Positions 23,048 through 35,611 are shown, counted from the first letter of the stretch. The stretch: 64,000 bases of DNA from Gluconobacter cerevisiae (GCF_015244675.1 NZ_JABCQO010000006.1:1-64000); one strand, 5' to 3'. Translations and numbers: made by a program. Notes: generated from the sequence alone by a model not told the origin.

Positions 23048-23101
23048 AAAATTACCTTGATAATACTGTGTTGTTTTTTTCTTTTGATAGGATGATTAGT
23101 G

Positions 23102-24235
23102 ATGGAAAATTTAAAGCAGCCAATTATGGGCTCCAAAGGAGCTGATATTGTTGGCCCGCGTAATCCGGAAATTGAACTGCAAAATCCAGATATTTTTCTA
23201 CCACCGGCGACAGATAAGGGGGGCATTCCTAATCTGAAGTTTCCTTTCGCTATGGCGCATAACCGTCTTGAAGATGGCGGGTGGGCAAGAGAGGTTACCT
23301 GTCGTGAAATGGGCGCGCTGAAAGAGCTTGCTATCGTTAATATGCGCCTTCCTCCTGGCGTCGTGCGTGAAATGCATTGGCATAAGGAAGCGGAGTGGGC
23401 TTACGTGCTCAAGGGAAAAGTTCGCTTCTACCTTATGGACGACCAGCGTCAGACTCTTATTGAAGATCTGGAACCGGGAGATTTATGGTTCGCTCCAGCA
23501 GGCTTCCCACATGCTATTCAGGGCTTGGAAGAAGGTACAGAGTTCGTACTTGTTTTTAACGATGGGAATTTTTCAGAAAACCAAACACTATTGGTGACGG
23601 AATTATTTGCGCATGTTCCATTGGAGGTTCTGGCAAAAAACTTTGGCGTTCCTGAAGCGGCTTTTGCAAATATTCCATCACATGAAAAATATATCTTCCG
23701 TCAACCGGTTCCACCCCCGCTTGAGCAGGTACGCCGGGATCTTGGCGCCGTAAGTTTTACCGACAAATACGTGTTTCGTGCCTCCACTACCCCGCCTACG
23801 GCTTATCCGGGAGGCGCAACGCAGGTTATCGACTCACGCAATTTTAGTGTGACGACGTTGGCTGCATTGATTATTGATCTCGAACCCGGCGGAATGCGTG
23901 AGATCCACTGGCATCCGGATGCTGATGAATTGCAATACTATATTTCAGGAAAAGCTAGAATGACGGTATTCGATGCCGTTGATAATGCCAGGACATTTGA
24001 TTTTGTTCCCGGTGATGTTGGTTATGTCCCCAGAACTTTAGCGCATTATATTGAAAATATAGGTGACGAGCCAGTTCGTGTCATTAACGTATTCCATACA
24101 GGACAATATAAAGATATTTCATTCAACAACTGGTTAGCATTAACCCCTGCACACCTAGTCAAAGGACATCTTGAGGTCGATGATCAGTTTATCAGTCATC
24201 TCAGGAAAACGCGGCAACCTGTGGTTAAAAAATAA
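23102..24235 (+). CDS. oxdC: Oxalate decarboxylase (bicupin)
   Basis: This 377-residue manganese bicupin converts oxalate to formate and CO2, consuming a proton. The first cupin has Mn ligands H92, H94, E98 and H137. The second has H269, H271, E276 and H315. The mobile lid over the catalytic site reads SENQ at 158-161, retaining the key Glu of the Bacillus OxdC lid (SENS). This supports decarboxylase rather than oxidase chemistry. No export signal is visible, so a cytoplasmic location is expected. AGGATG upstream serves the ATG at 23102, with a GTG one codon earlier as an alternative. Acid tolerance or oxalate detoxification is a likely role. Confidence 0.9.
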   Translation: MENLKQPIMGSKGADIVGPRNPEIELQNPDIFLPPATDKGGIPNLKFPFAMAHNRLEDGGWAREVTCREMGALKELAIVNMRLPPGVVREMHWHKEAEWAYVLKGKVRFYLMDDQRQTLIEDLEPGDLWFAPAGFPHAIQGLEEGTEFVLVFNDGNFSENQTLLVTELFAHVPLEVLAKNFGVPEAAFANIPSHEKYIFRQPVPPPLEQVRRDLGAVSFTDKYVFRASTTPPTAYPGGATQVIDSRNFSVTTLAALIIDLEPGGMREIHWHPDADELQYYISGKARMTVFDAVDNARTFDFVPGDVGYVPRTLAHYIENIGDEPVRVINVFHTGQYKDISFNNWLALTPAHLVKGHLEVDDQFISHLRKTRQPVVKK

Positions 24236-24451: not shown

Positions 24452-26209
24452 TCAGGCTCTGAGGTCGCGCAGCAGATCGTGTCCATGTTGGGCAGCCATT
24501 CCGGCCTTCAAGTCCTTACCGACACTGCGTGCGCAAAGGGCAAGGGACAGGGCACCGGCATCGGGATGGCCCTTGCTGCGTTCGCCATGCATTTTCGCAC
24601 GTCCCATTCTTGGTAAGAGGTTGCGTGTATCCTGCGCTGCCTGATAGGCGGCTTCAGCACCTTCCATCCAAGCTTTGACGAGTTCATGGCCCGCGGCCAG
24701 TTCCCGCTCCAGCGTTTCCACAAACGGGACCAGCGCATCTACGAGCGTCTTGTCGCCGGGTTTTGCCCTGCCGAGCAGCATGATGCGTTCCATGCTGTTA
24801 CGTGCCCCCTGCGAAAGCTGTTCGGCACTTGGCAGACGGCCGTCATCGAGCGCCGTGCTAAACGCCCGCAGACCTTCTCCCCACAGAGCCCCCGATGTGC
24901 CGCCGGCACGGTCGGCCCACGCATCGGCGGCCGTGGCCAGAACCGTGGCAGGGCCTGCACCGGCATTGGCTGCGTTGCGGGCTGCGCGTGCCGACGCTGC
25001 TGACCCGCGCGCCATGCCCTGTCCATGATCGCCGTCGCCTGCAAGGGCGTCGATATGGCCCAAGCTGGACTCCTCGGCGGCCAGCATCTTCGCCAGATTT
25101 TCCATAACATCCGCGACGCACGCCCCGCCCTGACGGCCCGCTGCGGTGGCAGAGCGCATATAGACGATCGTGGCTTCATCCTCGACGGCAAGATCGGCCA
25201 CACCATCTCCGACCAGCGTTCCGTGGCGCAGGGCTGCGGAATCCACTGGTGCGCGCCAGTATTGCTCAAGGTCTTCATCGAGCCATGTCAGGGTGAGGGA
25301 ACAGCCCGCCATGTCCAGACTGGTGACATACTCGCCCACCAGCGGAGCAACGAGGGTTAGTCCGGCGTTTTCGAACATTGGCGCCAGTGCGTTCCACAGC
25401 ACGAAAAGCTCTTCCTGCTTGGTGCTGCCCAGACCGTTCAGCAGAACGGCGACACGGCGCGGTGCTTCATGGGGGATTTCGGCCAGCAGACGGTCGAACA
25501 GGATTTTTGCCAACACTTCCGGCGTGGGGACGTCTTGTTCATCAATTCCCGGTTCACCGTGAACGCCAAGCCCGAGGGCCATGCGATTTTTTGGGACTTC
25601 GAACAGTTTTTCCGCCTCGCCGGGCAGGGTGCAGCCATCGAAAGCCACGCCGAAGGTGCAGGTCTGACGGTTCACGCGATGCGCGACTTCCTCAACTTCA
25701 TCGAGCGTCAGGCCAGCTTCGGCAGCGGCCCCCACGACCTTGAAAATCAGCAGGTCTCCCGCAATGCCCCGGCGGCGTTCGCGGGTGGAGGCGTCCGAAC
25801 TGGCCACGTCATCGGCAGTTGCCAGAACGCGGACGTCATAGCCCTCTTCGCGCAGGCGGTCGGCGGCAATCCCGAAATTGAGCACATCGCCCGCGTAGTT
25901 GCCGTAGCCGAGGATGATTCCGCCGCCGAGATCGGCCTGCCGGGCGATGCTCTTGATGGCCTGCGTTGAGGGCGATGCGAAAATGTCGCCTGCCACGGCG
26001 GCATCGCCGAAGCCCTTGCCGACATAGCCCGCAAAGGCGGGATAGTGGCCTGAACCGCCGCCCAGTACGACGGCAACCTTGCCTTTCGGGCCGGGCTTTG
26101 CCCGCAGAACGCCACCACGGACGAGGCGCACAAGGTCATGATGGATCAGGCTGAACCCGCGCAGGGCCGACATTGCGAAATTGGATGCGTCGCCGCAGAT
26201 CTTGGTCAT
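24452..26209 (-). CDS. Fused DhaK-DhaL ketose kinase (dihydroxyacetone/L-erythrulose kinase)
   Basis: This 585-residue ATP-dependent kinase has a DhaK domain with GGGSGH at 50-55 and the substrate-binding His217 in GLGVHGEPG, which forms a covalent hemiaminal with the ketone. A DhaL nucleotide domain follows, with GDGDHG at 391-396, GGTSG and PGDKTLVDAL. Family members phosphorylate dihydroxyacetone or, in tetritol operons, erythrulose (LerK). The neighbourhood (RpiB and TIM homologues, ABC importer) favours a tetrulose. The ATG at 26209 follows GGAGG and is preferred over the longer frame. It is the last gene of the operon. Confidence 0.85.
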   Translation of the reverse strand: MTKICGDASNFAMSALRGFSLIHHDLVRLVRGGVLRAKPGPKGKVAVVLGGGSGHYPAFAGYVGKGFGDAAVAGDIFASPSTQAIKSIARQADLGGGIILGYGNYAGDVLNFGIAADRLREEGYDVRVLATADDVASSDASTRERRRGIAGDLLIFKVVGAAAEAGLTLDEVEEVAHRVNRQTCTFGVAFDGCTLPGEAEKLFEVPKNRMALGLGVHGEPGIDEQDVPTPEVLAKILFDRLLAEIPHEAPRRVAVLLNGLGSTKQEELFVLWNALAPMFENAGLTLVAPLVGEYVTSLDMAGCSLTLTWLDEDLEQYWRAPVDSAALRHGTLVGDGVADLAVEDEATIVYMRSATAAGRQGGACVADVMENLAKMLAAEESSLGHIDALAGDGDHGQGMARGSAASARAARNAANAGAGPATVLATAADAWADRAGGTSGALWGEGLRAFSTALDDGRLPSAEQLSQGARNSMERIMLLGRAKPGDKTLVDALVPFVETLERELAAGHELVKAWMEGAEAAYQAAQDTRNLLPRMGRAKMHGERSKGHPDAGALSLALCARSVGKDLKAGMAAQHGHDLLRDLRA

Positions 26210-26245
26210 GTGTTTTTCCTCCAGTCGTGTTCCGCAGTGGAACAA

Positions 26246-27265
26246 TCAGGCTGCATCACGGTTGAGGTAACGACGGGCCAGCGCGTCGAAGGAGATGGCG
26301 AGGACAACGATCCCGCCGCTGACGACCGACTGCCAGTAGGGCGAAATTCCGAACAGCACGATGATGTCTTCGATCATGCCGATAATGACGGCACCTAGGA
26401 CCGCTCCGACCGGGCTGCCGATGCCGCCTGTGGTCGCAACACCGCCAATGACGGCTGCGGCGATCGGTGCCAGAACCCAGGTGTCACCGATGGAGGGCTG
26501 GGCCGTTCCCAGACGGGCGACCATCAAGATCCCGGCGAGTGCTGACAGGAATCCGGCGAGGGCGAAAGCACCCATGCGGATGGCGTTGACGCGGATGCCC
26601 AGCATCCGGGCTGCGTCCGGGTTGCTGCCGATCGCGTAGATGTAGCGGCCGACGGGCGTACGGAACATCACAAACGCCACAACTGCCAGACACACCAGAA
26701 GCACGACGAACGGCACAGGGACGCCCATGACGAGCCCGCGTCCGAGAAAGGAGATGTCGCGCGGGATGCCCGTAATGGCCACGCCTTTGGTCGCAACGAG
26801 GTTGGCGCCGCCATAAACGCCGGCCATACCGATCGTCAGCACCAGCGAGTGCAGGCGGAGCTGCGTAATGAGCGCTCCGTTCAGCAACCCGCACCCGGCT
26901 CCCATCAGCAGGCACAGCCCGAGCGAAAGCCATGGGTTCAGACCGAGTTGCACCATTAAAATGCCGCCGACTACGCCTGCCAGACCGCCAATGGCGCCGA
27001 CGGACAGATCAAGCTCGCCCAGAATCATGAGAACGGACTGTCCGATCGTGACGAGCCCGACAAAGGCCAGCGCACGTGCGATGATCATCATGTTGAAAGA
27101 CGTCAGGAAGTGCGGCGACAGCGCACACGAGGCCCCGAAAATGATGACCAGCGCGGCGATGACGCCGCCCAGCGGATTGCCCACCAGACGCGACACCAAT
27201 GCTTTCATGGGCGGCATTTTCGGCGGCTTGGACGGCGCGGCGGGGAGGGTGGTTTCAAGCGACAT
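26246..27265 (-). CDS. Ribose-type sugar ABC transporter permease
   Basis: The 339-residue RbsC/EryF-like inner-membrane permease has around 8-10 helices. Features include ARALAFVGLVTIGQSVLMILGELDLSVG, IGSNPDAARMLGIRVN and AAAVIGGVATTGGIGSPVGAVLGA, all typical of CUT2 transporters. The ATG at 27265 has GGAG upstream and overlaps the ATPase stop by 11 bp. It works with the ATPase and binding protein encoded directly upstream. The presumed cargo is a tetritol or tetrulose. Confidence 0.88.
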   Translation of the reverse strand: MSLETTLPAAPSKPPKMPPMKALVSRLVGNPLGGVIAALVIIFGASCALSPHFLTSFNMMIIARALAFVGLVTIGQSVLMILGELDLSVGAIGGLAGVVGGILMVQLGLNPWLSLGLCLLMGAGCGLLNGALITQLRLHSLVLTIGMAGVYGGANLVATKGVAITGIPRDISFLGRGLVMGVPVPFVVLLVCLAVVAFVMFRTPVGRYIYAIGSNPDAARMLGIRVNAIRMGAFALAGFLSALAGILMVARLGTAQPSIGDTWVLAPIAAAVIGGVATTGGIGSPVGAVLGAVIIGMIEDIIVLFGISPYWQSVVSGGIVVLAISFDALARRYLNRDAA

Positions 27266-28760
27266 GACGGGTCTCCGGGGCGCCGATGATCGCGCCGACA
27301 AGCGTGTTGACGTCGGTAGTGGCCTGATCGAACGAACCCGTGATCCGGCCGGAGTACATGGTGATGATCCGCGAAGCGCAGCGCTGAAGCTCGGTCATTT
27401 CGGACGAGACGAGGATGATCCCTACGCCTTCTTCGGCAAGCTGCTGCATAATGCGGTAAATCTGGAATTTGGTTCCGATGTCGATCCCTTTTGTGGGCTC
27501 ATCGAAAATCAGGACGCGCGGCCTGCGAGCCATCGCCCGTCCGATAATTGCCTTCTGCTGGTTGCCGCCCGACAGATGAACGATTTTTTTGGCAGCGGAA
27601 GATGTCCTGACGTCGAACTGCCGGATTGTCTCCGCCACGACGTCATTTTCGCGCCGGGAAGAGATGATGCCGCCGCGCTTCATGCGATCCAGAACCGAAA
27701 GGCTGATATTTTCCCGCACGCTGAGCAGCGGGAAAATGCCGTGGTGCTTGCGCTCTTCGGAGAGGTAAACCATCCCCATCGCCACGGCGCGGTCTGTGCG
27801 GCCACGGGGGATTTCTTCTCCGTCGAGGAAGCACTGGCCGGATGTCGCTCTATGATAGCCGAAAATCGTCTGCATCAGTTCGGACCGGCCTGCGCCGACA
27901 AGCCCCGCAAATCCAAGGATCTCGCCCCGGCGCAGGGTGAAGGAGGCATCCGAAAACCCCGGTCCTGAAATATGTTTAGCGCTCAAGATGGTGTCGTTTT
28001 CGCTGACGGCGAAGCGCGGCTGGAACTTCTCTTCCAGCGAGACAGAACTGCCGGACATAAGCTGGATCAGGTGTCCTTCCGTCATGCCCTGCATAGGGTA
28101 GGTGCCGACGCTGCGGCCATTGCGCAGAACCGTCACCGTGTCGCCCAGCTCAAAGATCTCTTCCATCTTGTGGGAGACGAACACGATCGCGCAGCCGTCA
28201 TCGCGCAATCTGCGGATGATGCCGAACAGATGCTCGGTCTCGTTCGCCGTCAGCGAGGAGGTCGGTTCATCAAGAATGAGAACCCTGAATTCTTCACGAC
28301 AGGCGGCACGTGCGATCTGGAGAAGCTGCTGGTCCGGCACGCTGATGCGGTTCACCAGATGGCCGGGTTTTGCATGAATGCCGAAGCGCTGGATGAGATC
28401 TGCCGCAGCCTTTTCCATGGCACGTCGTGAGACCGTCAGATGGCCGAAGCCGGAGCGATCGAACGGCATGAACATGTTTTCGGCTACCGTCATGGAACCG
28501 AAAAGGCTCAGCTCCTGCGGCACATAGGCAACCTTCGTAAACAGGGCGCGATCTGCCAGCGCGTCTCCGTCTTCGATCAGGACGCGGCCTTCATCAGGGG
28601 CGACGAGGCCGGTCAGAACCTTGATCAGCGTGGATTTTCCGGCACCGTTTTCACCAGCGAGAATATGGATTTTCCCTGGCTCCAGCGTCAGGTCCACATG
28701 ATCGAGCGCGACCACGCCGGGATAGGTCTTCCGTACGGCTTCGATCTGAAGAATTGTCAT
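27255..28760 (-). CDS. Ribose-type sugar ABC transporter ATPase (two fused domains)
   Basis: The 501-residue CUT2 ATPase is of the RbsA/EryE type. The first domain has Walker A GENGAGKST and Walker B RVLILDEPTSSL, with a degenerate signature VPDQQLLQIARA. The second has a degenerate A-loop GLVGAGRSEL, the signature LSGGNQQKAIIGRAM and Walker B FDEPTKGID. This half-degenerate pattern is normal for the family. The ATG at 28760 begins MTILQIEAVRKTYPG; a TTG 11 codons upstream is an alternative. Confidence 0.9.
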   Translation of the reverse strand: MTILQIEAVRKTYPGVVALDHVDLTLEPGKIHILAGENGAGKSTLIKVLTGLVAPDEGRVLIEDGDALADRALFTKVAYVPQELSLFGSMTVAENMFMPFDRSGFGHLTVSRRAMEKAAADLIQRFGIHAKPGHLVNRISVPDQQLLQIARAACREEFRVLILDEPTSSLTANETEHLFGIIRRLRDDGCAIVFVSHKMEEIFELGDTVTVLRNGRSVGTYPMQGMTEGHLIQLMSGSSVSLEEKFQPRFAVSENDTILSAKHISGPGFSDASFTLRRGEILGFAGLVGAGRSELMQTIFGYHRATSGQCFLDGEEIPRGRTDRAVAMGMVYLSEERKHHGIFPLLSVRENISLSVLDRMKRGGIISSRRENDVVAETIRQFDVRTSSAAKKIVHLSGGNQQKAIIGRAMARRPRVLIFDEPTKGIDIGTKFQIYRIMQQLAEEGVGIILVSSEMTELQRCASRIITMYSGRITGSFDQATTDVNTLVGAIIGAPETRHVA

Positions 28761-28797
28761 GGTCGTGTTTCCCTTGTCCTGATCGTGCGGCAAGATG

Positions 28798-29730
28798 TCA
28801 GAGGGTCTTGCTGGTCAGAAGATCAATTCCGGTATCGATATATTTAGGTGTCTTCTGTCCCATAGCTTTCTGCCACGCAGAGATGACGGCCCAGTAACCC
28901 TGCATTTCGGGGCGGCTGGAGGCGGAAGATTCCGCTACGCCGTCCTTGATGAGCTGGATCATGTCATTGAGGTTGTCGAGGCCGACTTCCTTGACCTTTC
29001 CGGTTTTGCCACCTTCACGGATGGCCTGTCCGATGCCCACCGGCCCGGATGCATCACAGGCGACCCAGCCCACTAGATCCGGATGAGCCTGCATGATGGC
29101 GGAAGCCTGTTTTTGTGCGGTTTCGATGCTGTCATTGTCGATCCCAGTCGCCACGACTTTCATGTCCGGGTATTTCGCAAAGACCTTCTTTTCGCATTCG
29201 GCCCGAAGCGTATGGTTCGGAGCCGTCGGAACGCCCATCATGATGGCAACCTCGCCTTTCTTGCCAACGAGGTTCGCCAGTCTTTCAGCCGCCATGGTGC
29301 CCTGTTCGCAGAAATCTGCGCCGACGGCCGTGATGTCCATGCCTTCGGGAGGCAGGGAGTCGAACACCGTCATCGGGATTTTCTGGTCTGCTGCTTCATC
29401 CATGGCAGCGCGGTTGCCCTTTTCATCCAGCAGATCGAGGATCAGCCCGTCGGGATGCGTGGCGACAGCGCGTTCGATAATGTCGTTCTGAGAAGACACA
29501 TCCGCCGTTTGCGGCGCGCGATATTCGATCTCGACCGGGCGGCCCGTTGCTTTGGTGATCATGTCGCCAGCGGCCTTCGCCCCCGTCATGGCTTTATCAA
29601 ACCATGGATGGACCGTTTTGGGGACCAGAACGAAACGCAGGGGCGCGCCACTATCCGCCGCACAGGCGACGCCGGAGGACAGAACTGGCGCAGCCGCCAG
29701 CATTGCGGCAAAAGCAAATGCCGTTTTCAT
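28798..29730 (-). CDS. Periplasmic sugar-binding protein of the CUT2 transporter
   Basis: This 310-residue protein of the RbsB-like periplasmic binding family has a signal peptide (cleavage near VACAAD). Its characteristic segments are VPKTVHPWFDKAMTGAKAAGDMI, AVATHPDGLILDLLDE, IPMTVFDSLPPEG and KVKEVGLDNLNDMIQLIKDGVAESS. It delivers substrate to the permease/ATPase pair encoded next. The ligand is inferred to be a C4 polyol or ketose from the adjacent enzymes. Confidence 0.88.
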   Translation of the reverse strand: MKTAFAFAAMLAAAPVLSSGVACAADSGAPLRFVLVPKTVHPWFDKAMTGAKAAGDMITKATGRPVEIEYRAPQTADVSSQNDIIERAVATHPDGLILDLLDEKGNRAAMDEAADQKIPMTVFDSLPPEGMDITAVGADFCEQGTMAAERLANLVGKKGEVAIMMGVPTAPNHTLRAECEKKVFAKYPDMKVVATGIDNDSIETAQKQASAIMQAHPDLVGWVACDASGPVGIGQAIREGGKTGKVKEVGLDNLNDMIQLIKDGVAESSASSRPEMQGYWAVISAWQKAMGQKTPKYIDTGIDLLTSKTL

Positions 29731-29784
29731 AACTCTGTTCTTTCGAAAATCAGCCAGAACCTGCTCGGGCTGAAAGTTTTTATT

Positions 29785-30267
29785 TCAGCAGCTCATATCC
29801 GCAGAGGCTGGCTGCCGGTATTTCCTGCCGAGTGCATCAATTCCGGCAATATTGCGTGCCGATGCACTTGTGGGATCGAAGGTGCAGGCCAGCCATGCTT
29901 CCACGATCGACTTCGCGACTTCCGGCCCAATGACGCGCGCCCCCATGGTGATGATATGTGCGTTGTTCGACAGCGCAGCGCGTTCGGCGGAATAGGTGTC
30001 ATGCGTCAGGGCCGCCCGAATGCCAGGAATTTTGTTGGCGGAAATGCACACGCCAATCCCGGTTCCACAGCACAGGATGCCCCGGTCGAACTCACCGTTC
30101 AGAACCGCCAGCGACACGCGCTCGCTCAGTTCGGAATACAGTTCGGCGCGCTCATCTTCGGGATGGGACATGTCGACGACGACATGACGTCCAAGCGTCG
30201 AGAGATGCTGGGTCAGAAGCTTCGCCAGACCTTCTCCAGCGCTGTCTCCACCAATGGCAATACGCAT
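29785..30267 (-). CDS. eryI: RpiB-family sugar-phosphate isomerase (EryI-like, D-erythrose 4-phosphate isomerase)
   Basis: The 160-residue cytosolic isomerase has the RpiB core [23 protein letters not shown], with the active-site Cys before GTGIG and the downstream [24 protein letters not shown]. RpiB interconverts ribulose and ribose 5-phosphates. In tetritol operons the homologue EryI converts D-erythrulose 4-phosphate to D-erythrose 4-phosphate. The adjacent TIM homologue and kinases favour the latter. The ATG at 30267 follows GGGGGAAA and sets the start. Confidence 0.85.
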
Positions 30268-30302
30268 GGTTATTTCCCCCGTTCTTGCGTTCATTCAGCC
30301 AT

Positions 30303-31112
30303 TCAGGCCGTTATTTTGTCCGAAACCAGATCGCGCACACTGTCGACAAGCGCCATGAAGTCCGTTGCCTTCCAGGCGGCCCGTCCGATGAACACACCAT
30401 CCACATCAGCAAGTCCGACATAGCTGCGGATGTTGTCCCGCGAGACGCTCCCGCCATAAAGCAAGGGGATGCGCGCGCCCTCAGAACCGGTAAGTTCCTG
30501 CACGACACCCCGGAGGCGGGTGTGAACGTCCGAGACGAAGTCTGCGTCCGCTGGGCGACCGGAAGATCCGATGGCCCAGACCGGCTCATAGGCAATCAGG
30601 ACATGCGCCAGATCTTTCCGCGCCACACCATGCAGCGCGATTTTGGTCTGCCGGGCGAGCGTTTCGTGCGAGACGCCAAACTCGTACTCGTCCAGCGTAT
30701 CGCCGATACAGATGAGCGGACGTAAGCCGTGACGAAGTGCTGCGTGAACCTTCAGATTGACTGTCCAGTCCGTCTCGCTGAAATGCTGGCGACGTTCGGA
30801 GTGGCCGATTTCCACCATCGAGGCCCCACAGCCCCGGATCATCTCCGGTGAGACTTCGCCCGTCCACGAGCCGCTGTCTTCCCAGTGCATGTTCTGTGCG
30901 CCGACTAACAGGGCGCTGTCCTCCAGAATGGTGCAGACATCCTTCAGGGATGTGAAAGGCGGGATGACGAAAGGCTGAATCCCTTGCGGCGGAACAAACC
31001 CTTCAAGAACCTGTGCTGAAGCGATGGCTTCGGCCGGGCCCTTGTTCATCTTCCAGCTCGTTCCGATCCAGACCTGACCCATCTCCGACCTTTCGAAAGG
31101 CTGAACGCTCAT
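30303..31112 (-). CDS. Triosephosphate isomerase homologue (EryH/LerI-like tetrulose-phosphate isomerase)
   Basis: The 269-residue TIM-barrel protein has the catalytic Lys21 in SWKMNK, the His of IGHSERR, the Glu of AYEPVWAIG and the phosphate loop LYGGSVS. The Asn that normally precedes WK in triosephosphate isomerase is Ser19 here (GTSWKMNK), which suggests a specialised paralogue. EryH and LerI, TIM homologues in tetritol operons, isomerise tetrulose phosphates; its place beside rpiB and the kinases supports this. The ATG at 31112 has GGAGAA upstream. It is probably not the housekeeping glycolytic enzyme. Confidence 0.82.
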   Translation of the reverse strand: MSVQPFERSEMGQVWIGTSWKMNKGPAEAIASAQVLEGFVPPQGIQPFVIPPFTSLKDVCTILEDSALLVGAQNMHWEDSGSWTGEVSPEMIRGCGASMVEIGHSERRQHFSETDWTVNLKVHAALRHGLRPLICIGDTLDEYEFGVSHETLARQTKIALHGVARKDLAHVLIAYEPVWAIGSSGRPADADFVSDVHTRLRGVVQELTGSEGARIPLLYGGSVSRDNIRSYVGLADVDGVFIGRAAWKATDFMALVDSVRDLVSDKITA

Positions 31113-31140
31113 TCCGATTCTCCGTGTTGCAGAACGGTAT

Positions 31141-31169
31141 ATGTTAGCTTGAGCGTTAAAGCATAACAT
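31141..31169. promoter_or_regulatory. Imperfect palindrome upstream of the TIM homologue
   Basis: ATGTTAGCTT at 31141-31150 and AAGCATAACAT at 31159-31169 are complementary apart from a one-base bulge. The site lies about 30 bp upstream of the ATG at 31112, in the 186-bp gap that divides the operon. It may be an operator for a second promoter. Confidence 0.35.
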
Positions 31170-31298
31170 AAAAAAGTTACTAATACCAAAAACAACGATA
31201 CACAACCCGGGGAGTTCAGTTGGAAAATACTCTTGAAGACTAATTTTTCCTCGTGAATCTCCCGGAGAACCTGTCTGTTTCAGAATCACATAAAAATG

Positions 31299-32282
31299 TT
31301 ATGCCGCGCGTTCCAGGAGGACAGTTTCGGTCACGACGCTATCCAGATCCGCTTCTCTGAGTGGTGGTATGCCCTGTGCGCCCAGTTTTTCATGATAGAG
31401 ATGCGTCGCTTCTTTCGCCGACAGGGCGCCATCGGTCACGCTACGCATGGCCTCGATCAGCAGAAGCGGGTCATCCGCATCCACGATCTTGCGTCCGAAA
31501 AGTGCCGCGCGTGCGCCACAGCACTGCGCCTGATGGATCAGTTCCAGACAGTCGCGCGTTGTTCCGCTGCTGCCCCCCATGATGCCCACGATCACGGAAG
31601 GGTCGAACGCACAGAGTTCGCTTAGAGCGTCCGCGCCATTAAAAGGGACCTTGAGGAAAACGGGGCGTTCTTCACGCCGCAGACCTGCCAGACAGCGGAC
31701 GATCATATCGTTCAGATAAAAGCCGCGATCCGCCTGCGCGATCCTGCCTTCATTGGGATTGAAGACCTCAAGGAAATACGAAAAGCGGCTTTCTTCGGCC
31801 TCTTCTCGAAAGCGTGCGAACTCTTCCAGTGCAAAACTGTCCTGTTCGGCATCGCCATTGAAAGTCATGGAATACAATCCAAGGCTGGTCTGCGCTTTTT
31901 TCAGCGATGCCGAGCGGAAAGGAACGGATTTCTGGGACTGGTAAGATCCACCCCGTCCGCGCCACAGATCCGTTGTGTCATTGGCCCGGATCGCGGACTG
32001 AATTCGCGTTCCGGCAAAACCATCTTCCGCAATCAGGGTCTCCAGAATGGAGGCCGACGTCAGCATGATGTCCACGATGTCCTGCTGGAGGATAGTGTGG
32101 ATCACATCAACATATTCGCGACGGGTCCGAAAGCGGGAATGACCCTGCCTGATGTCACGACGCAGGCCCGTGGCGCTGATCCCCGCCGCCATGTCGGAAT
32201 CCTTGGCGTCTGCCAGAATGAAATCTGTGCGGTCGTCCTGACCGGACATCATACGGGCGATTTTTTCTTCGTAACGGTTCAT
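31299..32282 (-). CDS. Class I aldolase-like protein (DeoC/LacD/IolC-C superfamily)
   Basis: This 327-residue TIM-barrel protein looks like a Schiff-base aldolase. A likely catalytic Lys is in ERPVFLKVPFNGADAL, and other barrel-strand features are YFLEVFNPNEG, VIVGIMGGSSGT and ARAALFGRKI. It starts MNRYEEKIARMM and includes many acidic and aromatic residues near SFALEEFARFREEAEESRFSY. No close family name is certain. It sits 3 bp downstream of the GlpD-like gene and upstream of the TIM homologue. It may cleave or rearrange a tetrulose phosphate, but this is inference. Confidence 0.65.
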   Translation of the reverse strand: MNRYEEKIARMMSGQDDRTDFILADAKDSDMAAGISATGLRRDIRQGHSRFRTRREYVDVIHTILQQDIVDIMLTSASILETLIAEDGFAGTRIQSAIRANDTTDLWRGRGGSYQSQKSVPFRSASLKKAQTSLGLYSMTFNGDAEQDSFALEEFARFREEAEESRFSYFLEVFNPNEGRIAQADRGFYLNDMIVRCLAGLRREERPVFLKVPFNGADALSELCAFDPSVIVGIMGGSSGTTRDCLELIHQAQCCGARAALFGRKIVDADDPLLLIEAMRSVTDGALSAKEATHLYHEKLGAQGIPPLREADLDSVVTETVLLERAA

Positions 32283-32285
32283 GGT

Positions 32286-33995
32286 TCAGGCTCTCAAGGC
32301 TGTTTGTGAGGGGGATGTATCCGGAAGTTCGCCCTTCAGGTTGTGACGCTCCTGCGCTTCCTTCCAGGCCGCACGACACTGTCTGTCTGTCTCTTGCGCG
32401 TTCCATCCCAGCGTTGCGCCAACGATACGGCCCACTTCGAGGACGGTGTCTGGTTTCAGCAGGCCGCTCAGAGCGATCGGCGTCCGGCGAAAAAGAACAT
32501 CGGAAAGCGTGCGGACCAGCTCTTCGGAAGCCACAAAGGCCAGTTCGCGCCGCGTATATGTGGGGAGCGTGCGTAATGGCGCGTCGGCTTCCTTCTGGCA
32601 GAACGTCGCAAAAGCGCGGGCACGCGATCCGTACCGTTCAAGCAGAATTCCGGCCCTCTGACGCGGCATGCCATAGGTCACGAAAAACTCGTCCAGATAC
32701 GCGGAATACCGCTCCGGCGTTGGATAATCGCGTCCACCGCCAATTGGAAAATTTTTCGTAGAGAGGTGTCGTGCAGCGCCCAGAATTCCGAGTAAGCGGT
32801 CTCCAACCTCTTCGGCCAGCCCGCGGAATGTCGTCCACTTCCCGCCAACCAGAGACAGAAGAGGTGTTTCTCCAAGCCGGTTTTCATGCACGATATGGTC
32901 GCGGCTGATGGCGCCAGGATCGGCTGCATCGGTCGCGGGGAGAGGGCGGACGCCACTGTAGCGGTAAACCACGTCGTCAGCGCTGAAACGAAAGCCGGGG
33001 AACAGGTCTGCGACCATCCGCAGCATGTAGTCCTGTTCGTCGTCGGTGCAGGTGGCGGTATCGGGATCTTCGATCCGGATATCGGTCGAGCCGACCAGAA
33101 CATGACCGTAAAACGGATAGGCTAGGCAGATCCGTCCATCTGGCGTTCCGAAATACATCATGCGCCCTTTGAGCTCGCGCAGAAGTCCGTCGTGCCGCAA
33201 CAGAAGATGCGAGCCTTTCGTGCCGCCGATATAACGCGTCGTCTGACCAAGGACGGCATTGATGCGGTCGATCCAAGCACCTCCTGCATTTACCAGTGCC
33301 CGCGTCCGAACGTTGCGCGTTTCTCCGGTGATGCTGTCTTTGAGCTGCAAAACGCCATCGGCAAAAGAAACCGGAACGGTATAGGTCGCAAATCCGCAGC
33401 CCGCCCCGACATTTAGCCCGTCCTGCACACATTCGTAGCCAAGCCGCTCAGGCTGGGTAATGGCAGCGTCATAATATTGTGCGGTGGCGAGAACATCCGT
33501 CGCCATATGCGGCCATTCTTCCCGCGTTCTGCGATTGAGGAAGAGGCTGTGTCGAGGCATGACGCGCGCGCGCCGTCCCAGAAAATCATAGATCTGAAGC
33601 CCGGCTTCCAACACCAGAGCCCCCCGGTCCGTCATTTTTCCGCCCAGGCGCAGGAATTTCCGCAGGGACGGGACGATGCCTCCGAACCATGAGCGGATCG
33701 GTAAAACTGTTGGCAGGGGTTTGACCACATGCGGCGCATTGCGCAGTAGAAGATTGCGCTCCAGAGTCGACTGCGCGACCAGACGGAATTCACCCGTTTC
33801 GAGGTATTTGATTCCGCCATGGATCAGGCGGGAGGGCGCACAGGAAGCTCCGGAACAGATGTCGCTCCGATCAACGAGCAGGACGCGCAGATCCTGTAGC
33901 GCCAGTTCCCGAAATAGCCCGGCCCCGTTAATGCCGGCCCCGATGACGATGACATCGAACTCCGCATTCTCGCGGATATCTTCCAGTCCGCTCAT
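32286..33995 (-). CDS. GlpD-like FAD-dependent polyol-phosphate dehydrogenase (EryB-like)
   Basis: The 569-residue flavoprotein is of the glycerol 3-phosphate dehydrogenase family. It has the FAD-binding Rossmann motif VIVIGAGINGAG near residue 15, SRLIHGGIKYLE, VNAGGAWIDR, a GTKGSHLLL segment and VGGKWTTFRGLAEE. In erythritol operons the homologue EryB oxidises L-erythritol 4-phosphate to L-3-tetrulose 4-phosphate at the membrane, passing electrons to quinone. True glycerol 3-phosphate cannot be excluded. It overlaps the FGGY kinase stop by 4 nt (ATGA), so kinase and dehydrogenase are tightly coupled. Confidence 0.85.
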   Translation of the reverse strand: MSGLEDIRENAEFDVIVIGAGINGAGLFRELALQDLRVLLVDRSDICSGASCAPSRLIHGGIKYLETGEFRLVAQSTLERNLLLRNAPHVVKPLPTVLPIRSWFGGIVPSLRKFLRLGGKMTDRGALVLEAGLQIYDFLGRRARVMPRHSLFLNRRTREEWPHMATDVLATAQYYDAAITQPERLGYECVQDGLNVGAGCGFATYTVPVSFADGVLQLKDSITGETRNVRTRALVNAGGAWIDRINAVLGQTTRYIGGTKGSHLLLRHDGLLRELKGRMMYFGTPDGRICLAYPFYGHVLVGSTDIRIEDPDTATCTDDEQDYMLRMVADLFPGFRFSADDVVYRYSGVRPLPATDAADPGAISRDHIVHENRLGETPLLSLVGGKWTTFRGLAEEVGDRLLGILGAARHLSTKNFPIGGGRDYPTPERYSAYLDEFFVTYGMPRQRAGILLERYGSRARAFATFCQKEADAPLRTLPTYTRRELAFVASEELVRTLSDVLFRRTPIALSGLLKPDTVLEVGRIVGATLGWNAQETDRQCRAAWKEAQERHNLKGELPDTSPSQTALRA

Positions 33996-35611
33996 GGTCG
34001 CGCTCCCTGTGTCATGGTGCCGGCCATGGCGTAATTCAGAGCCGGCCCGGCCTCTATAAGATCGTTTTCACGGGGCCGTTCTGCCGCGGCAGGCTTCAGT
34101 GAAGACGTTCCGCCGTCGTAGAGGTCCGACCAGAATGGCCTCATAGCCTGCGTCAGAGCGACATAGCGGCGATAGATTCCCTCATAAATGCGCTCGCGGT
34201 CCAGCTGTGGTCTGTAGGTGTGCATCGGCACACCCTGCGCGGCCACGGCATCTTCAAGAGTGGCATACAACCCTACGGAAACGCTCGCCGTCAGGGCCGC
34301 GCCAAGGGCTCCGGCCTCGCGGACTTCAGGTATGCGGACAGGCATTCCCAGAATATCCGCGAACATCTGGGCAATGGCAGGCTGTCCGCTTCCGCCACCT
34401 GAAATTCCGACCCTGCGAACCGGTCCGGTCTGTTTCAGGGCATCGACATGTTCGCGATGATTGAAGACTGTTCCTTCCACCATTGCCTGAAACAGATCGG
34501 CCCGATCATGCCACGACTGCACGCCGAACAGGGACGCGCTGGCTGGCGCATCATACGGTGAGCCGAACAGGAACGGATGATACAACGGAACTGCAGGGCG
34601 GGCTCCTGGCTGGGACAGACGCGCTTCTATTTCCGCAGAAAGAACTCGCGCTGCGTCGTGATCGCCCGGCATGAGGATTTTAGCCAGCCATTCGAGATTG
34701 CTTGAGGACGCCGGAGAGATCGCCATGCAGTTCCACAACCCGCGACGATACCCCGCCCGACAGGCCCAGCCTTCTCCGACGACGGGACGGTCGCGGAAAA
34801 CCTCATTGATTGAAAAAGTCCCAGCCGTGATCGACAGATCGCCTGCTCTGGTATGCCCCAGACCGACGGCTGCGGCTGTTACATCATGCAACCCGACCGA
34901 AACGGGCGTGCCGGCAACAAGCCCCGTCAGGGCTGCGGCTTCTGCCGTTACGACGCCACCCCGGTCACAGGAAAGGCGCATTTCCGGCAGCGCAGTCCGG
35001 ATGTCCGCAAGGCCGAAAACATCCAGCAGGTCGTCGCTGTAATCCTGTGTGTACAGATCGGTAAAAGACGTGCTGGCCTCGGTCAGATCCGTCGCGATTT
35101 CACCCGTCAGGCAGTAACGGATCCAGTCCTTGGCAAAAATCACGGACCCGATCGCCTGATACCGTTCCGGCTCGTTGTCCCGGATCCAGGCGAGAAGCGT
35201 GTTAGCGGAATACACATAAGGACGCTGCCCCGCGATAGGCAGTGTCAGATCGGAGACGCCGTCACGCTTCCAGTGCTCATGAATAGCTGTCGCCCGACTG
35301 TCGAGCGACATGATGCCCCGGCCCAGCGGATTACTTGATCGGTCAAGTAGAAAAACACCATCTCCGTGCGCTGTGACCCCGACAGACGCAATGGCACTCC
35401 CGTCCAGCCCTGCAGCGCTGAGCGCATCGCGAATGGATCCGATAACGGCCTGCCAAGCTTCATGCATATCGCGCTCGACATGGTGCGGACGCTCCATGTG
35501 CTGTGCAACACGGCGCCGCCCTGTTCCGACGATGGCCCCTGTGGACGAAAACACAACGGCTTTGGTCGTGGTGGAACCGCTATCGATTCCGATGATGAAA
35601 TCCCGGCGCAT
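33992..35611 (-). CDS. FGGY-family carbohydrate kinase (EryA-like)
   Basis: The 539-residue kinase of the FGGY family has the N-terminal phosphate loop GIDSGSTTTKAVVF and the catalytic Asp segment VGLHDVTAAAVGLG. The adenosine-binding stretch RRVGISGGGSGQPAIAQMFADILG is followed by REAGALGAAL. The family covers glycerol, xylulose, ribulose and erythritol kinases. Its coupling to a GlpD-like dehydrogenase and to tetrose isomerases favours erythritol kinase (EryA). The ATG at 35611 follows GGAGGG and begins MRRDFIIG. It is the first gene of the operon. Confidence 0.82.
   Translation of the reverse strand: MRRDFIIGIDSGSTTTKAVVFSSTGAIVGTGRRRVAQHMERPHHVERDMHEAWQAVIGSIRDALSAAGLDGSAIASVGVTAHGDGVFLLDRSSNPLGRGIMSLDSRATAIHEHWKRDGVSDLTLPIAGQRPYVYSANTLLAWIRDNEPERYQAIGSVIFAKDWIRYCLTGEIATDLTEASTSFTDLYTQDYSDDLLDVFGLADIRTALPEMRLSCDRGGVVTAEAAALTGLVAGTPVSVGLHDVTAAAVGLGHTRAGDLSITAGTFSINEVFRDRPVVGEGWACRAGYRRGLWNCMAISPASSSNLEWLAKILMPGDHDAARVLSAEIEARLSQPGARPAVPLYHPFLFGSPYDAPASASLFGVQSWHDRADLFQAMVEGTVFNHREHVDALKQTGPVRRVGISGGGSGQPAIAQMFADILGMPVRIPEVREAGALGAALTASVSVGLYATLEDAVAAQGVPMHTYRPQLDRERIYEGIYRRYVALTQAMRPFWSDLYDGGTSSLKPAAAERPRENDLIEAGPALNYAMAGTMTQGARP

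Follow-up and report, generated by a model that had tools for sequence, protein, structure and literature searches.

A predicted class I aldolase-like protein in a two-module, probable ketose and polyol operon of Gluconobacter cerevisiae

An operon of Gluconobacter cerevisiae has homologues of EryH and EryI, two enzymes of the erythritol (ery) pathway, but lacks EryC, the racemase of the Brucella route. The operon lies in a stretch of 64,000 nucleotides (here called the window), where nine co-directional and mostly touching or overlapping genes run on the minus strand from position 35611 to 24452, in the order FGGY kinase, GlpD-like dehydrogenase, protein X, TIM, RpiB, binding protein, ABC ATPase, permease and DhaK-DhaL kinase. 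A sequence-only reading had interpreted these genes as EryA-, EryB-, EryH- and EryI-like enzymes joined to a LerK-type kinase, with two branches that meet at L-erythrulose 1-phosphate and thereby bypass EryC. The place and the families of the nine genes were confirmed by Pfam and NCBIfam, and so was the absence of EryC (no match in the genome with EryC of Rhizobium leguminosarum TA1 as query, at E values up to 10). However, the earlier gene list left out X (31299-32282, minus strand), an aldolase-fold protein of 327 amino acids that stands at EryC's place, and the view of a single operon missed that sister species carry two separate modules.

From its fold and an active-site alignment, X is a predicted class I (Schiff-base) ketose-1-phosphate aldolase. 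On balance we favour, with moderate confidence, a reading in which the operon is no variant of the Brucella pathway and joins an L-erythrulose-type ketose branch (module B) to a polyol branch (module A) where X splits a ketose 1-phosphate.

Fold and active site of protein X

X is 97% identical to its counterpart in G. kondonii, and homologues in plasmid records carry the annotation "hypothetical protein". No Pfam family matched X, the NCBIfam scan gave weak matches to LsrF/ADH synthase models, and neither database has a family that covers it; a scan of species genomes yielded at least 581 encoded relatives. Two assignments were rejected, namely X as a GatZ-type epimerase (PF08013), given the lack of a Pfam match, and X as an EryC orthologue, as suggested by the gene order, because BLASTP against the real EryC showed the proteins to be unrelated.

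The AlphaFold2 model of X (57 homologues; predicted local distance difference test score, pLDDT, 93.1; predicted template modelling score, pTM, 0.91) exhibits a (beta/alpha)8 aldolase fold. The top folds found for it were LsrF, with the lowest Foldseek E value (5.6e-11), Methanocaldococcus ADH synthase and archaeal fructose-bisphosphate (FBP) aldolase, followed by LacD, YihT and sulfohexulose-1-phosphate aldolase. Comparison of the model with LsrF, ADH synthase, archaeal FBP aldolase, LacD and YihT gave Z scores of 20-24 and root mean square deviations of about 3 Å over approximately 250 residues.

Since a common fold is no proof of function, the active site of X was compared as well. In LsrF, K203 is the Schiff-base lysine, and GG226-227 and GR253-254 are the phosphate ligands (PMC2728841). 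In a profile alignment K211 of X falls on K203, the catalytic lysine of strand 6, and GG236-237 and GR263-264 of X fall on the corresponding GG and GR pairs in strands 7 and 8. K211, both pairs and D25 are invariant in the 57 homologues, and by its position in strand 1 D25 is a candidate catalytic aspartate.

X accordingly shares with LsrF the Schiff-base lysine and the phosphate-binding GG and GR motifs in addition to the fold. On the other hand, its identity to LsrF, archaeal FBP aldolase, LacD and YihT is as low as about 12-17%, and the motifs DAKDSD, RANDxTD and FLEVFNPN are peculiar to X. When X was aligned by HHalign to individual sequences of YihT and FbaB, no significant match resulted, so it is the fold that links X to LacD and YihT. 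Judged from the model, X and its relatives look like a large, widespread and unnamed class I aldolase-like family.

The genes found with X and the two modules

Gene neighbourhoods were counted in the best 80 of at least 581 X loci, which are not independent, as several genera are repeated. The operons with X contained PfkB as sole kinase in 46 of these 80 cases, FGGY together with GlpD in 19, PfkB plus FGGY in three, DhaK or DhaKL alone in three and ADP-PFK in two, while seven were without a labelled kinase; a labelled kinase was present somewhere in the locus in 76 of the 80. TIM, recognised with EryH as label, lay within the X operon in 15 and RpiB in 11 loci, and EryC was not found within approximately 10 kb of X in any of the 80. 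The PfkB adjoining X is nearest to IolC with a score far under the IolC cut-off, and one FGGY adjoining X is nearest to ribulokinase, below the cut-off. In Vibrio, an aldehyde dehydrogenase gene follows X.

Entry by PfkB, DhaK, ADP-PFK or FGGY/GlpD could plausibly in each case leave a phosphate next to a ketone, as an aldolase forming dihydroxyacetone phosphate (DHAP) needs. The many entry modules before X, and the lack of a common downstream isomerase, fit a product that would enter central metabolism directly, and we infer that a DHAP-forming aldolase suits the neighbourhoods of X better than an epimerase does. In the inositol pathway IolC precedes a DHAP-forming aldolase step, and LacD and YihT also act after a PfkB-type kinase. 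The likeness of most X operons to the inositol pathway lies in their kinase, a PfkB nearest to IolC, at the low score given above.

Three Asaia/Ameyamaea loci (L064 2028-6896, L085 7944-12707 and L139 4164-10360) have X followed by DhaKL, and these genes are preceded by those for an NAD-dependent epimerase-type dehydrogenase and a xylose-isomerase-like protein, which are fused in L064. These loci resemble tetronate (erythronate/threonate) pathways but differ in their final enzymes. A small alphaproteobacterial genome of 1.4 Mb also has an X, with 41-43% identity to that of the window (L151 8639-9631), in a stretch of 35% GC (guanine plus cytosine) beside genes for PfkB, FGGY, an importer and transketolase.

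In four Gluconobacter genomes (G004, G014, G021 and G024) the operon is split into two unlinked, complete operons. Module A of these species reads FGGY-GlpD-X-TIM-DeoR-propeller, and module B reads TIM-DeoR-RpiB-binding protein-ABC-permease-DhaKL. DhaKL is the final gene of module B in the sister species (71-73% identity), where the binding protein keeps company with RpiB and DhaKL, and the TIMs of the two forms make up separate, supported clades in a tree. A YncE-like beta-propeller closes the module A operon in split Gluconobacter (L137 12596-13573; L040 12867-13823). A further genome, G013, has only the module A form, and neither an EryI-like RpiB nor a close DhaKL was found in it. A module A without RpiB cannot need the erythrose 4-phosphate route, which argues against X as a substitute for EryC, at least in G013. 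Komagataeibacter, Asaia bogorensis and several Gluconobacter have the fused form, so the fusion is probably old and the split form, with TIM-DeoR doubled, derived.

Comparison with the erythritol pathway and the remaining genes

The erythritol locus of R. leguminosarum TA1 served as the ery reference. Gene 1 of module A encodes an FGGY carbohydrate kinase (33992-35611, minus strand; Pfam FGGY_N/FGGY_C), with a GGAGG site preceding its ATG at 35611. It is 26% identical to EryA, no nearer than to LsrK or GlpK, scores 225 bits with the NCBIfam XylB model (under the cut-off of 380) and is 31% identical to the FGGY of a Martelella X operon. The next gene (32286-33995, minus strand; Pfam DAO and DAO_C) encodes a GlpD-like FAD dehydrogenase, a member of a subfamily that accompanies X; it scores under the NCBIfam GlpD cut-offs and is 32% identical to ordinary GlpD and 31% to EryB. 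EryB is itself 52% identical to ordinary Gluconobacter GlpD and thus nearer to the glycerol enzymes than to the window dehydrogenase. The latter has 37-62% identity to the GlpD-like proteins encoded with X in Vibrio, Martelella, Ameyamaea and Asaia. The low identity to EryA and EryB, together with the nearness to the GlpD-like proteins of X operons, indicates that the operon begins with another kinase-dehydrogenase pair as its first half; by sequence comparison the two are not orthologues of EryA and EryB.

By the same kind of comparison the second half of the operon is tetrulose-like. The TIM homologue of the EryH/TpiB/LerI type (30303-31082, minus strand; Pfam TIM) is 47% identical to R. leguminosarum EryH. 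The RpiB homologue (29785-30294, minus strand), a predicted D-erythrulose-4-phosphate isomerase of EryI/DerI-like type, is about 62% identical to rhizobial EryI and scores 239.9 bits with NF051858, the model for that isomerase, a marginal result at a cut-off of 240. The EryH- and EryI-like assignments of the sequence-only reading are thereby upheld. The genome has three TIM genes, the housekeeping TPI being a separate gene on contig 11, and the NCBIfam TIM models fail to tell TPI from EryH/LerI. The operon hence resembles that of Brucella and Rhizobium (EryABCDHI) in TIM and RpiB and in the order kinase, dehydrogenase, third enzyme, TIM and RpiB. In contrast to that system, its kinase and dehydrogenase are not EryA and EryB orthologues, an aldolase-fold protein stands where EryC would be and a DhaK-DhaL kinase is added.

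Downstream of RpiB follow a periplasmic sugar-binding protein (28798-29730; Pfam Peripla_BP_4), a duplicated-ATPase subunit (27255-28760; two ABC_tran stretches in Pfam) and a permease (26246-27265; Pfam BPD_transp_2) of a sugar ABC importer, all on the minus strand. The last gene (24452-26209, minus strand; Pfam Dak1 and Dak2) encodes a fused DhaK-DhaL ketose kinase, which scores 719 bits with NF011049 at a cut-off of 492, has the only DhaK in the genome and is LerK-like by its context. A bicupin, oxalate decarboxylase-like by sequence, is located directly downstream of the operon on the opposite strand (23099-24235).

The gap between X and TIM is, with 216 bases, the widest of the operon, and contains an operator-like palindrome, GTTATGCTTTAACGCTCAAG (31148-31167, minus strand), that differs at one position from a motif which related loci have in common upstream of their TIM genes. 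In this genome the motif, GTTATNNTTTARCGNTAAAG, precedes two TIM genes of the EryH type, at 31148-31167 and at C6:96048-96067 (genome G000, L142). Four sites with at most two mismatches were found in the 3.0-Mb genome, and none with the reversed control. The operon in the window is without a DeoR gene, and Komagataeibacter and G. morbifer carry one between TIM and RpiB; the DeoR regulator that adjoins TIM in related operons may have GTTATNNTTTARCGNTAAAG as its operator. The second EryH-type TIM lies approximately 60 kb from the operon, with a gene for an EryR-like DeoR regulator behind it (G000 contig C6:96144-97750, L142).

The proposed pathway and its alternatives

In acetic acid bacteria, the oxidation of erythritol to L-erythrulose takes place in the periplasm. 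The analysis shows the gene content, the modularity, the predicted fold and active-site residues of X and the lack of EryC, whereas all substrates and reactions of the pathway proposed here are predictions. Module B (TIM, RpiB, binding protein, ABC importer and DhaK-DhaL) would import a ketose, most likely L-erythrulose, phosphorylate it at C1 and isomerise the ketose phosphate via D-erythrulose 4-phosphate to D-erythrose 4-phosphate. DhaK-DhaL, TIM, RpiB and an importer are found together in one operon, and module B stands alone in four sister species. By analogy, module B may most simply be regarded as an L-erythrulose pathway like that of Mycobacterium smegmatis (LerK, LerI and DerI; a kinase, a TIM and an RpiB), with an importer added. 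The likeness of the DhaK-DhaL to LerK is one of context. The operon differs from the M. smegmatis route in having no erythritol/threitol dehydrogenase EltD, and in acetic acid bacteria the ketose would be made periplasmically. In module A, the FGGY kinase would phosphorylate a polyol and the GlpD-like dehydrogenase oxidise it to a ketose 1-phosphate, which X would cleave via a Schiff base on K211 to DHAP and an aldehyde; TIM could carry the DHAP on to glyceraldehyde 3-phosphate. Literature searches returned no report on genes by which acetic acid bacteria break down erythrulose.

Several points weigh against this proposal. LsrF, the nearest relative of X by sequence, is annotated as a thiolase, and the aldolase fold thus does not by itself determine the reaction of X. 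Literature searches gave no report on X and no reaction for any X homologue, and to our knowledge no such reaction is known. If the polyol of module A were a C4 compound, formaldehyde would be set free on cleavage by X. Both modules have a TIM of the EryH type, so that its task in module A may be other than triosephosphate isomerisation. Finally, the binding protein matches many solved sugar binders (best E value 4.5e-28) with none singled out, and for binding proteins adjoining other X genes the solved relatives likewise indicate no single ligand.

The EryC step and the M. smegmatis route are cited here through PMC10733421, PMC11508834 and PMC3599248. According to PMC11508834, EryB yields L-3-tetrulose 4-phosphate, which EryC racemises to the D form used by EryH; according to PMC10733421, EryC converts D-erythrulose 1-phosphate to L-erythrulose 1-phosphate, the substrate of LerI. 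Because the Brucella and the erythrulose namings of this step correspond, L-3-tetrulose 4-phosphate is D-erythrulose 1-phosphate. The sequence-only reading, which equated it with L-erythrulose 1-phosphate, had thus confused the enantiomers, and branches of the EryA/EryB and LerK types would not meet without an epimerase; an EryAB route would still need EryC, and dropping EryC alone bypasses nothing. Together with the weak resemblance to EryA and EryB and the overlooked X, this stereochemistry defeats the EryC bypass. What stands of the earlier pathway is the half with TIM, RpiB, DhaKL and transporter, which fits an L-erythrulose route, and what falls is the EryA/EryB branch. A version in which EryC is needless, the branches meet at L-erythrulose 1-phosphate and X has a side role appears improbable to us, even with a genome that has no EryC match and has an EryI-like RpiB, an EryH-like TIM and a fused DhaK-DhaL kinase. 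It is chemically workable for L-threitol only, where oxidation of the 1-phosphate gives L-erythrulose 1-phosphate, and not for erythritol via an EryA-type D-erythritol 1-phosphate. X and this one GlpD subfamily go together in Vibrio, Rhizobiales and Acetobacteraceae, which makes X unlikely to be accessory, and the module A of G013 occurs without RpiB and a LerK-like DhaKL.

X could also be a non-homologous replacement of EryC in a single tetritol pathway ending in erythrose 4-phosphate, where the FGGY kinase and the GlpD-like enzyme would turn erythritol into D-erythrulose 1-phosphate and X would epimerise this to L-erythrulose 1-phosphate. We regard this as unlikely, although FGGY-GlpD-X-TIM-RpiB mirrors the rhizobial order EryA-B-C-(D-R)-H-I with X at EryC's place, and Komagataeibacter, Asaia and several Gluconobacter preserve the fused order. 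The active site of X is that of an aldolase and X is unrelated to EryC by sequence; the kinase and the dehydrogenase are not EryA and EryB orthologues, only 15 and 11 of the 80 X operons counted above have TIM and RpiB, respectively, and the module A of G013 has no EryI-like RpiB to go with it. A third explanation, in which X is an erythrulose-1-phosphate lyase and module A turns erythritol via D-erythrulose 1-phosphate into DHAP and formaldehyde, agrees with the aldolase fold and would account for a module A beside tetrulose genes that needs neither EryC nor RpiB; PMC10733421 mentions the suggestion of such a lyase in the erythritol degradation of Propionibacterium and Sinorhizobium. Nevertheless, formaldehyde is toxic and the operon has no formaldehyde gene, and the IolC-like and ribulokinase-like kinases beside X point to C5-C6 substrates, so that we consider a lyase of this kind very improbable.

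With X as a ketose-1-phosphate aldolase the idea of an EryC bypass is replaced by a testable one, and for a family of at least 581 encoded relatives without a Pfam or NCBIfam model the mechanism, the active site and the place in a pathway can be predicted. The chances are perhaps even that X founds a large and so far nameless class I ketose-1-phosphate aldolase family, which would catalyse the final step shared by many polyol and ketose pathways in Alphaproteobacteria and some Vibrio, with entry via PfkB, DhaK, ADP-PFK or FGGY/GlpD. If true, a missing step would be filled in many sugar-alcohol operons of rhizobia and acetic acid bacteria, X could supply new DHAP aldolases for synthesis, and among these there could be candidates for the erythrulose 1-phosphate synthase that formaldehyde assimilation calls for. 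In acetic acid bacteria a ketose-salvage module, suited to their own periplasmic ketoses, seems to be paired with an unrelated polyol module. The locus is of lasting interest for the uncharacterised class I aldolase family that X would represent and for the modular way in which the operon is built.

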